This document shows positions 1 through 4,189 of a stretch of 64,000 bases of DNA, in pieces. Made by a program: the position numbers and the translations under genes. Numbering within the stretch: position 1 is the first letter of the stretch; the number at the start of each line of letters is the position of its first letter. Source of the stretch: Fidelibacterota bacterium (GTDB lineage: Bacteria > Fidelibacterota > Marinisomatia > Marinisomatales > UBA1611); the NCBI GenBank assembly GCA_018658715.1, contig JABHUQ010000101.1, forward strand, positions 1 to 64,000, written 5' to 3'. The notes beneath the pieces are model-generated. The model was not told the origin of the DNA. It searched no databases and was given only the letters and a program-made list of their open reading frames with translations.

Positions 1-1405
1 TTAGTTTAGATGCATCATCCGTATTTATCTCATTCATTGGGCTAGCAATTATATCTTGGATAGGTTTAGGTACATCAGTCTCATTCAAGGTCAGGATGAG
101 CACTTTGTAATCGGTAAGTAATCCATTATCTACGGCTTCACCAAATCCGATTCGATAAAATTCTTCTCCATAAATTTCAGGGTCATCCATGGAGCAAAGC
201 ACCGCGTCCGCTTCGGCTGCCTTTGACTTTGAATCATCACTAAACAACCGTGGCGTAGCTGTCATATAAATTCGTTTTTTTGCTTTAATAAAATCATTAT
301 CGTGCACTTTTACAAATGCAGATTCATCGTTACCCGTAAGCGTAACTCCAGTGGTTCTATGGGCTTCATCGCAAATGATTAAATCAAATGCTCCAAAACC
401 AATATTCGAAGTCATCAATTCTTTTTGTGCTGCAGAAATGACATCAATGGATTGATAGGTAGAGAAAACAACCGTCAAACCTTCTTTATTTTCTGACTTA
501 ATCCTTTCAAACTGTCGTTTTATATTGTTTACATCCGTAGATGCGGGCATTGCCAAATCAACTACACTTAAACTATTATTAGCGGAATCTATTAGATTGA
601 TTTGTTTAGAATGAGTCTTGGTTATTCTTGAATCAGAACAAATACAAATTGGGTTGATAGGTTCATCAGAATCTGCTGACCAACCACGAAGCGTTTGCCC
701 TATTAATGCAATTGAAGGGACTAAAAATAATACAAGTCCATTCCCATCCGTCTCTTTTTCAGCAATTTTTAAAGCTGTAAAAGTTTTGCCTGTCCCACAT
801 GCCATAATGAGTTTACCACGGTCATTGGTCTTGAAATATTCGTGAGCTTTATCGACTGCCTTGATTTGATGTTGCCATAAATCTTTTTTAGTGGTTCTGG
901 CTAATTCACCCGTAATCCCTTTTTCAAGTTTTTCCCAATCAATGGGTGCTTCTTCAAGGTCATGTAAGTTTAATCGAGATACAGGGGGGTTTTGATTTTG
1001 TATGGCTTCTTCCGCATTCGAACCCCATTTATTTGTGGTTGAAATCCATAGACGATGGGCAAATCGCACGGTTTGATTATCATCATTGGTAAATTCACGG
1101 CTTGAAGTAGACAGGAAGGAATCAACAGAAGGTTTATCAATTGAACTAATTTCTTGGAAACATTTACATTGAATTGCCCAGTAATCACCATCATATGTTT
1201 GAGCAACAATATCAATACCTACATCTTTACCACCAAAATCCATTTTTGACGGAAATTCATTCCAAAGCCATACATAACTAAATTGATTAGAGTAGGTTGG
1301 GTCTGTTTGAAGATAGGCTTGCATGAGCCGTTCAAAACGGTCACCCTTATTTCGTTCGGAAAAAGCTATTTCTCTGTATTTATCTAATACTTTTTGAAAA
1401 TTCAT
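1..1405 (-). CDS. Restriction-type Mrr nuclease-helicase protein, N-terminal part (gene runs off the window)
   Basis: This reading frame stays open from an ATG at 1405 to the window edge, so about 468 N-terminal residues are visible and the C-terminus lies outside. The N-terminal part has an Mrr-like nuclease core, with GKDVGIDIVAQ followed by WAIQCK (the D...QxK pattern). A superfamily 2 helicase follows, with Walker A ACGTGKT, a DEAH box in ICDEAH, and motif III in YMTATPR. An Mrr domain fused to a DEAH helicase is the arrangement at the start of type ISP restriction-modification enzymes (LlaGI/LlaBIII-like) and of related predicted helicases. A methyltransferase and target-recognition part would be expected further on, outside this window. 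It lies 17 bases downstream of a zinc-ribbon gene on the same strand and may be cotranscribed with it. The family call is sure at domain level. The ISP assignment is inference. Confidence 0.8.
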   Translation of the reverse strand, partial: MNFQKVLDKYREIAFSERNKGDRFERLMQAYLQTDPTYSNQFSYVWLWNEFPSKMDFGGKDVGIDIVAQTYDGDYWAIQCKCFQEISSIDKPSVDSFLSTSSREFTNDDNQTVRFAHRLWISTTNKWGSNAEEAIQNQNPPVSRLNLHDLEEAPIDWEKLEKGITGELARTTKKDLWQHQIKAVDKAHEYFKTNDRGKLIMACGTGKTFTALKIAEKETDGNGLVLFLVPSIALIGQTLRGWSADSDEPINPICICSDSRITKTHSKQINLIDSANNSLSVVDLAMPASTDVNNIKRQFERIKSENKEGLTVVFSTYQSIDVISAAQKELMTSNIGFGAFDLIICDEAHRTTGVTLTGNDESAFVKVHDNDFIKAKKRIYMTATPRLFSDDSKSKAAEADAVLCSMDDPEIYGEEFYRIGFGEAVDNGLLTDYKVLILTLNETDVPKPIQDIIASPMNEINTDDASKL

Positions 1406-1422
1406 CTTCTAATATTTACACT

Positions 1423-1776
1423 CTAATCCCAAAGTAGAATCGGTTCATTTTTATCCTTAACCATTCTACCACTACATTTTGGACATTTACGCCATCTAGG
1501 ATTCCAATCGGTTAGGTTGTCTCCATCACATTCTCCACAGGTAAAAAATTCATCTTTCATATCAACTTCAAAACCTGATAAAGGGCTTTCTTTCGGGTTT
1601 TCAAACCATTCTTTTAGATACACATCTCCAGACATACCCACCATCACATCAGTAATAATATTACAGTCATTACAAATATATGGACTCAAAACTGCTTGCA
1701 TACCTACACTGACTTCACCAGTTGATTCTACATTGTAATCGCATTTATTACATTTGAATGTGTAACTCATTCCCAT
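1423..1776 (-). CDS. Zinc-ribbon protein of unknown function
   Basis: A 117-residue protein with four CxxC pairs at about residues 9/12, 35/38, 80/83 and 98/101. This is enough for two zinc-ribbon folds separated by an acidic linker. An ATG two codons downstream (MSYTF) is an equally possible start. No catalytic motif is visible and I do not recognise a family. It sits directly upstream of the restriction-type helicase on the same strand, so it may be an accessory protein of that defence locus. That role is only inferred from position. Confidence 0.65.
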   Translation of the reverse strand: MGMSYTFKCNKCDYNVESTGEVSVGMQAVLSPYICNDCNIITDVMVGMSGDVYLKEWFENPKESPLSGFEVDMKDEFFTCGECDGDNLTDWNPRWRKCPKCSGRMVKDKNEPILLWD

Positions 1777-2395
1777 TAAATAGCAAACGCCTCCTGTAAT
1801 GTTGATTGTTACTTATACCCAAATATACCCTTCATCTAACAAATAAAAAACCCAACGATTGTGAGACGTTGGCATAGAAAATTATAGATCAAGTACTAAC
1901 ATATTTATACAGTATTGAATCATTTAGTTCCTTTGTGCTATTCGCCTACTGAACAGGGACTAGGAGTGGAAAGAATATGACCTTTAACGAGAGATAGTAC
2001 GCTAGACGACTCTTTTGTCGTCCGTGGTAAATCTGGACGAAGAATCGTCAAATTTAATGGTCAGAAAAAAGAGAGAATATATAGCCAACAAGCATTATGG
2101 AATTAAAGTAGAGATTATGGGTGCAATAAGTACATGAAATAGATAAGAAAAATTAGGATTGAAAATGGTCGCTTCCATAAAGTGATGCGAACTTTTAGTC
2201 TGAATCTCATTAAGCAAAGAATGTTTTTTTTATAAAGTAAGTAAGTTATAATGACATTTTTCAATGAGGACCACAGTACAGCATTATGCTCCCCTGCTTA
2301 CTTTGGAGATTGAATATTTTATATTGTAGGTAATTGTATTATAGAATATTAAATAAAATTGTAATAGATTTTGACTGATTGGTTTGCAAGAATTA
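1777..2395. other. Intergenic region without a supported gene
   Basis: About 600 bases with no convincing coding frame. It contains a minus-strand terminator-like hairpin near 1850. It also has a short hairpin at 2004-2021 (GACGAC/GTCGTC around TCTTTT) and a TATAAT box near 2247 upstream of the unknown 212-residue gene. The rest is AT-rich sequence with no RNA-gene fold I can name. The region is part of the accessory block that ends at the tRNA fragment. Confidence 0.5.
1841..1873 (-). terminator. Rho-independent terminator-like hairpin
   Basis: On the minus strand, CCAACG (complement of 1867-1872) pairs with CGTTGG (complement of 1852-1857). It is followed by GTTTTTTATTT. It lies upstream of the zinc-ribbon gene, so it would stop minus-strand transcription entering from the unassigned region to its right. 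Confidence 0.5.
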
Positions 2396-3031
2396 ATGGA
2401 AACGAAAAACAAAGAAATCTCGACACTATTTTTTAGTCAATACCCTGATGTTTTTTGGCGTATCGTATCTATATACTACCCATTTTCAGAGAAAGAATTA
2501 TTCCTATATAGGGACTACATATACTGGGGAAGCCACTGTGATGGAGAACTCGAAGTTGGTTTAAATAATTATATTGCCCCTGGAATAAATTGTAATAATA
2601 ATTTACATGATGATGAATTGATTTATAGATGTTTTAAAAATAGTGTGCACTTTGAAAAAATCCCTGAACCTTTTTTTGGCGGACATTTTACATCTGAAAT
2701 GCAGATTGATTATGAAATACAAAATCGGACTTATCAAATCATGGCGCACAATAAACTTCTTGATGATAGTTCCTATTATATATCCAAAGAAGACAGAGAA
2801 GAAATTGAGAATGTTGTATATAAAAAATTTAAACAATTAAAAATTGATACCAAATTAGACTTTTTTGAACTTATTACAATTTTATCTAAAAATGATTACG
2901 ATTCTGATTTATTACAATTTAATCCCATTTTATGGGATGGCTACTTTGGTAAAATAATTGATTCAGAATATTTGTACAATTTTCACCGCAGACCGTCATG
3001 GTTATTAAAAGCCAGTGGACTATCTGATTGA
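2396..3031 (+). CDS. Unknown protein, about 212 residues
   Basis: A soluble, acidic protein rich in aromatic residues, with no signal peptide, membrane segment or catalytic motif I recognise. The frame also opens four codons earlier at a TTG (2384), but I prefer the ATG at 2396. Neither start has a clear ribosome binding site. Codon use is strongly AT-biased. It stands alone between two non-coding stretches in the island-like left end. Such orphan genes beside restriction systems are often defence or immunity proteins, but nothing in the sequence proves that here. Confidence 0.55.
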   Translation: METKNKEISTLFFSQYPDVFWRIVSIYYPFSEKELFLYRDYIYWGSHCDGELEVGLNNYIAPGINCNNNLHDDELIYRCFKNSVHFEKIPEPFFGGHFTSEMQIDYEIQNRTYQIMAHNKLLDDSSYYISKEDREEIENVVYKKFKQLKIDTKLDFFELITILSKNDYDSDLLQFNPILWDGYFGKIIDSEYLYNFHRRPSWLLKASGLSD

Positions 3032-3128
3032 TTTTTGCCATTTTAATGTATATCCCCCAAAACATATCCCCATTTTGTATATGTTTTGAATTAATTTAGT
3101 TAGTTTTAATCTTTTAGGTATAAAATAA

Positions 3129-3153
3129 GAAAGGGCAGTAATCTGCCCCTTTC
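3129..3153 (-). terminator. Terminator hairpin downstream of the tRNA fragment
   Basis: AAAGGGCAG (3130-3138) pairs with CTGCCC(C)TTT (3143-3152) with one bulged C. Read on the minus strand, the hairpin is followed by CTTATTTTAT. It lies 31 bases past the tRNA 3' end on the same strand, as expected for the original tRNA transcript. The opposite-strand side has a CT-rich tail, so it may also act weakly in the other direction. Confidence 0.6.
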
Positions 3154-3183
3154 TCTCTATTAAACAACTTTGTTGTCGGTTAG

Positions 3184-3212
3184 TCGGGGCGACAGGATTT
3201 GAACCTGCGACC
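3184..3212 (-). other. tRNA 3'-end fragment (T-arm and 3' acceptor strand only)
   Basis: On the minus strand this reads as the 3' end of a tRNA. It has a T-stem GCAGG, a T-loop TTCAAAT, the returning stem CCTGT, an acceptor strand CGCCCCG and discriminator A. CCA is not encoded. The 5' half (acceptor strand, D-arm, anticodon arm) is absent, because the sequence to the right is mscS. The shared string CTGCGACC belongs to both genes, so the exact join lies in 3205-3212. Such fragments typically mark attachment sites of integrative elements or past recombination. The anticodon, and so the tRNA identity, cannot be read. Confidence 0.75.
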
Positions 3213-3621
3213 CACTCGCTTTATGACCCGTGATGATATTGAGATTACCATACCTAATTCTGTTATTGCCGCTTCTAAAATTGTGAACGAGAGTGGTGGC
3301 CCCGGTGAAACTGAACGCGTACGAATTACCATCCATGTGGCTTATGATTCAGACTTAGATCAAGTTAAAAATGTTTTGAATTCCATTGCGCTGGCAAATG
3401 ATAATGTTTTAAAAACGCCTGAACCTCGTGTACGATTTCGTGAATTTGGTGATCACGGGCTGAAGCTTCAACTCTTATTCTGGATTCATAAACCTGAAAT
3501 TCGTGGCAGGACTGTAGATGCGGTGAATACAGAGATTTACAAACAATTTTCTGAAAATAATATTTCAATTCCTTATCCCACCATGAAAGTATTGCTTCCA
3601 GCAGAAGGAAATAATATTTAA
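3205..3621 (+). pseudogene. mscS: mscS-family mechanosensitive channel, 3' remnant
   Basis: The frame encodes about 137 residues that match the C-terminal half of MscS-family channels. It begins in the beta domain (LRPTRF, then DDIEITIPNSVIAAS) and continues through the alpha/beta vestibule domain to a natural stop. The membrane part, including the pore helix TM3, is missing. The 5' end runs straight into a tRNA 3'-end fragment, and the first residues of the open frame (MN) come from the tRNA. No promoter or ribosome binding site precedes it, so this is a truncated, very likely non-functional copy. A chimeric assembly is the main alternative. Confidence 0.8.
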
Positions 3622-3681: not shown

Positions 3682-3719
3682 AAACATCAAAACCCCACAT
3701 TAGTGGGGTTTTGATGTTT
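3682..3719. terminator. Long perfect hairpin, bidirectional terminator
   Basis: A 17-base perfect inverted repeat with an ATTA loop. The left arm is 3682-3698 and the right arm 3703-3719, with core CCCCAC/GTGGGG flanked by A-rich and T-rich arms. It lies 61 bases after the mscS remnant and can terminate in both directions. A shorter relative of the same hairpin follows the next gene. Confidence 0.8.
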
Positions 3720-3743
3720 GTGGGGTGATGGGTAGATTTGGGT
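3693..3743 (+). repeat. Direct repeat copy 1 (hairpin plus GATTTGGGT tail)
   Basis: About 50 bases starting at CCCCACATTAGTGGGGTTTT and ending in GTAGATTTGGG. The sequence reappears with small differences at 4139-4189, on the other side of the 122-residue repeat-protein gene. The two copies bracket that single gene. Confidence 0.65.
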
Positions 3744-4125: not shown

Positions 4126-4133
4126 ATAACACA

Positions 4134-4161
4134 TCAAGCCCCACATTAGTGGGGTTTTTTG
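4134..4161 (+). terminator. Terminator of the 122-residue repeat protein gene
   Basis: CAAGCCCCAC pairs with GTGGGGTTTTTTG around an ATTA loop, with one G-T pair, and is followed by T-rich sequence. It is 10 bases after the stop codon. It shares its core and loop with the 3682-3719 hairpin. Confidence 0.75.
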
Positions 4162-4189
4162 TTTGGTGAGGTGATGTGTAGATTTGGGT
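4139..4189 (+). repeat. Direct repeat copy 2 (hairpin plus GATTTGGGT tail)
   Basis: The second copy of the repeat at 3693-3743, differing by small substitutions and length changes in the middle. The pair could be the footprint of a duplication or insertion of the gene between them. Confidence 0.65.

Follow-up and report, generated by a model that had tools for sequence, protein, structure and literature searches.

Why does the 3′ end of a tRNA gene stand directly against the 3′ half of mscS near the left end of this contig, and does the joint between them mark the edge of a genomic island? The window, meaning the whole 64,000-base stretch analysed here, comprises bases 1-64,000 of contig C53 (90,127 bp) in a draft genome of 2.46 Mb and 115 contigs (96.3% complete, 2.2% contaminated), whose named same-family relatives are Candidatus Neomarinimicrobiota MAGs. 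Two further contigs of this draft genome, C5 and C8, are needed to describe the features at and to the left of the joint:

2 to 1405, minus strand: Type IIG restriction enzyme-methyltransferase, N-terminal 468 amino acids, cut by the contig end (PADLOC and Pfam)
1423 to 1776, minus strand: zinc-ribbon-like protein of 117 amino acids, with a weak match to PF09723 below its cut-off
2384 to 3031, plus strand: orphan ORF of 215 amino acids, without a Pfam match
3128 to 3182, minus strand: tRNA downstream region and hairpin terminator, homologous to C5 and to two same-genus genomes
3183 to 3212, minus strand: 3′ 30 nt of tRNA-Pro(GGG), T-arm and 3′ acceptor strand without the 5′ part, by identity to the C5 copy
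3205 to 3213, no strand: the joint, with tRNA up to 3211/3212 and mscS from 3212; C8 differs only at 3211
3205 to 3339, plus strand: overlap with the end of C8, 1 mismatch in 135 bp, at 3211
3212 to 3621, plus strand: 3′ part of mscS, with PF21082 complete and PF00924 present only as its tail, in frame with C8

The 30 nucleotides at 3183-3212 on the minus strand are exactly the end of an intact tRNA-Pro(GGG) at C5:18631-18705, beginning just 5′ of the T-stem. The tRNA tail described in the first-pass annotation is thus real, although it is 30 rather than 29 nucleotides long, and the intact tRNA with the same 3′ end that it suggested seeking in the genome is the one on C5. ARAGORN found no complete tRNA in the window. 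The annotation had also placed a terminator behind the tail, and this was borne out, as the homology to C5 continues through it (81% over 85 bp for tRNA and terminator together). In a four-way alignment with folding, the terminator reached -20.0 kcal/mol in the window against -7.4 on C5, and a terminator of the same kind stands behind tRNA-Pro(GGG) in each of the two same-genus genomes compared; an exact match to the terminator was absent from IMG/VR. Over the 73 bases past the tRNA in the four-way alignment, the window is identical to C5 at 43 of 71 aligned positions; against the two same-genus genomes the figures are 43 of 72 and 49 of 73. The fragment thus derives from the surroundings of a tRNA-Pro gene in the genome's own lineage, but is no recent copy of the C5 locus.

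On the other side of the joint, an ORF at 3199-3621 starts at a TTG within the tRNA piece and carries the whole of MS_channel_3rd (PF21082) and only the end portion of MS_channel_2nd (PF00924), so that the truncation of mscS noted earlier is real in C53. The 5′ half, which had been thought missing, was recovered by a DNA search of the draft genome itself. It lies on C8, a contig of 3,680 bp that encodes mscS codons 1-261 and stays in frame on passing into the window; past base 3211 the two contigs are identical for 128 bp, and no place besides C8 holds the 5′ half in the draft genome. We compared 16 mscS loci of the family (L011-L026) with both halves covered, L020 being matched by the 5′ query from residue 110 onward only, and in all 16 the gene reads through the joint site without a stop. 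A motif search located LRSTR at this site in 15 of these loci and missed it in L023. Two same-genus genomes and the genome's own contig C17 gave only distant MscS paralogues (26-29% identical). The unbroken genes of the relatives indicate that the normal path leads from C8 into the window.

The bases at the joint resemble both parents. Where the genome's own mscS on C8 reads CTGCGATC, the joint reads CTGCGACC, with seven of eight bases matching, and the serine codon of LRSTR has become proline in the window (LRPTR); together these changes indicate that base 3211 derives from the tRNA. An eight-base string had been reported as shared at the joint, and this stands as a match of seven in eight: tRNA and mscS have CTGCGA in common, then differ at one base and agree at one more, and strictly only base 3212 is common to both parents. 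Among 51,925 pairs of 8-mers from the tRNA and the 5′ part of mscS, six match at seven or more of eight bases, and the joint is one of these. Aligned locally, the tRNA and mscS also match best at the joint (CTGCGA-CCACT, an 11-base match with one gap); the score of this alignment was reached by 198 of 1,000 whole-gene shuffles, which is not significant gene-wide, and by about 19 of 1,000 shuffles of the 40-nt joint region. From the look-alike position of the joint in the two sequences, near-homology probably directed the join. Template switching, microhomology repair and a recombinase acting at a look-alike site would each be expected to join sequences in this way. No exact match to the junction was found in the genome-contig collection or in IMG/VR, from which the genome's own or very near records are possibly absent.

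On balance, we regard the joint as a chimera and not as a standing structure of the genome's own mscS locus, a reading that we hold with moderate confidence. The draft genome contains the displaced tRNA fragment, a second and unbroken route through mscS in the same assembly and near-homology at the joint, and we infer an origin of the hybrid outside the main genome. One of its parts would be a tRNA-Pro(GGG) copy, represented by its 3′ end and terminator, that borders an accessory region with defence genes; the other would be an ordinary, intact mscS whose 5′ half was assembled apart as C8. A strand ending at the tRNA T-stem (…CTGCGACC) may have paired with the mscS look-alike CTGCGATC and then been extended, presumably during library amplification and less likely in a cell, and the assembler would then have carried the hybrid into C53. 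Several findings argue for this sequence of events. C8 supplies the mscS 5′ half as its sole carrier in the draft genome and shares sequence with the window through the joint and past it, the only mismatch being at the joint itself; the gene is unbroken at this site in every relative's locus; the joint is one of the few near-identical 8-mer pairs; C8 has another gene fusion at its other end; and the left arm stops within a gene at base 1, with no remainder found. In the mscS loci of six relatives, moreover, no gene of C8 or of the window other than mscS itself adjoins mscS. The region is an ordinary one, probably mis-joined.

Other features of the assembly weigh against a chimera. C53 is 90 kb long and its left arm, at 3.2 kb, exceeds one read or fragment, so the joint was accepted by the assembler; an ordinary de Bruijn mis-join would require more than 8 bp of near-homology, so that a real hybrid molecule is needed; and genuine scars of tRNA 3′ ends with terminators exist in this genome, as in the tRNA-Leu fragment on C5. 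The length of the overlap with C8 also bears on the question. We compared both ends of 19 contigs, the right ends of C53 and C21 and the other stretches analysed here, eight of the ends consisting only of N, and other contig ends (C4, C18 and C21) share exactly 85 bp. A plain de Bruijn fork over 128 identical bases was rejected because three other contig ends share exactly 85 bp; the longer identity is more than a simple overlap in the graph, and two strains or two assemblies may lie behind it. The names of two relatives, MED648 and SP173, are ones that we take to belong to the Tara Oceans set of Tully 2018. That work describes genomes built with Megahit and then merged by Minimus2 (Tully 2018, PMC5769542). 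The joint resembles a chimeric joint in a MAG contig in that a gene is cut, the intact path is assembled, the bases look alike and the partner contig has a second fusion, and it differs in that its left arm is longer than one fragment. We found no literature on chimeric contigs with microhomology in metagenomes.

The second fusion lies at the far end of C8 (L004 3500-3680), where an integrase piece of about 175 bp (PF00589 positions 10-66) is in frame with the C-terminal part of a PmbA/TldD protein. The fusion point is at a GGAAAAGGCGACAGAAAG string, which the PmbA gene of the relative G006 resembles too. The PmbA part of C8 is 82% identical to the G006 gene from query base 176 on; upstream, that gene continues as a PmbA-type protein and has no counterpart of the C8 integrase part. 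A DNA search of the genome found no second copy of either part. This fusion is probably a second chimeric joint. With unrelated gene fusions on both of the contigs meeting at mscS, less trust can be placed in the ends of either.

Alternatively, a co-existing strain could carry the joint, if a microhomology-mediated rearrangement had attached a tRNA-Pro-flanked accessory region to mscS and destroyed the gene while the cells represented by C8 remained whole. The assembly of both alleles, the near-homology at the joint, the length of C53 and the 128-bp overlap, which exceeds the 85 bp at other contig ends, are all consistent with such a strain. However, unless the fragment had been displaced beforehand, loss of the 5′ half of the tRNA at its own locus would disrupt the infB-pnp-side locus (gene names from our reading of the ORFs), which is intact on C5, and a search for a second breakpoint contig found none. 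We consider this rearrangement unlikely.

The remaining alternative is the island boundary that the first-pass annotation had favoured for the accessory look of the genes to the left. That look is borne out, and the left arm resembles a tRNA-Pro-side island or the side of a tRNA hotspot. Its Type IIG fragment matches PADLOC PDLC03597 (638.7 bits, profile positions 4-451 of 1646) and the Pfam families Mrr_cat_2 and ResIII, and the other two thirds of the gene was not found in the 96%-complete draft genome. Among GenBank phages the Type IIG protein matched two records, each 38% identical to it and carrying a Listeria phage label; neither it nor the 215-residue orphan had relatives in IMG/VR, and the orphan was matched in only one of 33 family genomes, its own, which was included in the set. 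Judged by eye, the first ORFs downstream of tRNA-Pro on C5 and in genomes G001 and G002 appear to be unlike one another. An intergenic repeat of about 60 bp, of the ACCCCACATTAGTGGGGTTTT type, is present at window positions 3684-3743 and 4131-4189 and also on C5, C17 and C33.

Under site-specific integration, an attP containing the T-stem and acceptor end of tRNA-Pro(GGG) would have inserted at the mscS look-alike, with the left arm as one end of the element. Sites in the T-stem region are a normal class of island target, described for 1836 of 3919 islands in Islander (PMC4383910), the 11-base, one-gap match of mscS and tRNA lies exactly at the joint, and tandem fragments of tRNA-Pro(GGG) occur in a same-family genome. 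As in the islands with T-stem 'J' sites described there (PMC4383910), an exact tRNA 3′ end is displaced on C53 with the intact copy elsewhere in the same genome on C5, although the assembly does not link the two contigs; accessory genes lie on one side; and the fragment starts at one of the known sub-sites (anticodon loop, T loop and T/acceptor junction classes). Unlike in those islands, no tyrosine integrase gene lies within the putative island, and the fragment abuts a halved conserved gene whose other half is intact elsewhere. None of the 90 kb of C53 encodes the integrase that had been sought, all six PF00589 matches in the genome being on other contigs. A second boundary was not found: the junction of the mscS 5′ half with an element is absent from the draft, and the only other mscS 5′ half continues into mscS. 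Fragments of tRNA-Pro that are of att type, in G006, G012 and G021, begin at the anticodon stem and not at the T-stem. The fragment has also retained a terminator of host type. Such a terminator belongs to the host flank of an island rather than to the element flank, so the element would be on the mscS side, where a conserved gene stands. In view of C8, the 16 unbroken relatives and the lack of an integrase or a second boundary, the accessory-looking left arm is better read as one side of a chimeric or strain-mixed joint, and we judge integration improbable.

Displaced tRNA ends occur elsewhere in this genome and its relatives. A 3′ fragment of tRNA-Leu(TAA) with its terminator, starting from the anticodon loop, lies at C5 1437-1525 (L067, first 9 kb); it matches an intact tRNA-Leu(TAA) on C33 (L066 8272-8394) that is followed by an integrase remnant. 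C5 and C33 have similar repeat-rich ends, so the tRNA-Leu pair may be one small decayed island. The relative G012 has at least seven repeats of a tRNA-Pro(GGG) 3′ half, each combining 47 bases of the tRNA with a conserved 5′ arm (L051, at G012:C43 2-5380, L052, L053, L054 and L139), four of them on one 8.4-kb contig at a spacing of 1.6-1.9 kb; no integrase was present among the nine C43 ORFs scanned. Single repeats of this type are present in SP173 (L138, PAPB01000021.1, 4945-4988) and in G021, of the same genus as G012 (G021:C21, about 60921), which are possibly the same record. The G012 array has the appearance of an additive island built from small cassettes, and a report on Methylophilaceae describes a similar additive flexible island at tRNA-Lys (PMC10872708), likewise with repeated tRNA 3′ ends beside accessory genes; the window differs from that island in having a single fragment, which starts at the T-stem, and in being without the conserved 5′ arm that the G012 repeats share. 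An integron-like or tRNA-cassette origin of the window was rejected because the 47 tRNA bases and 5′ arm are absent. We found no literature on tRNA cassette arrays.

We therefore rank the chimeric joint first, as the reading we lean towards, then a strain-level rearrangement, which we doubt, and then secondary-site integration, which we doubt more. None of the three amounts to a novel type of system. When a truncated gene adjoins a tRNA end, the pair can mimic an island scar, and the intact gene may be present on a small contig elsewhere in the assembly. There is a slim chance, which we put lowest, that in part of the population a T-stem-targeting element with a Type IIG system used a secondary site in mscS and knocked out the channel gene. 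If the joint is real, it would represent the use of a secondary site by a tRNA-targeting element in a marine relative of the Neomarinimicrobiota, which would be modest news.
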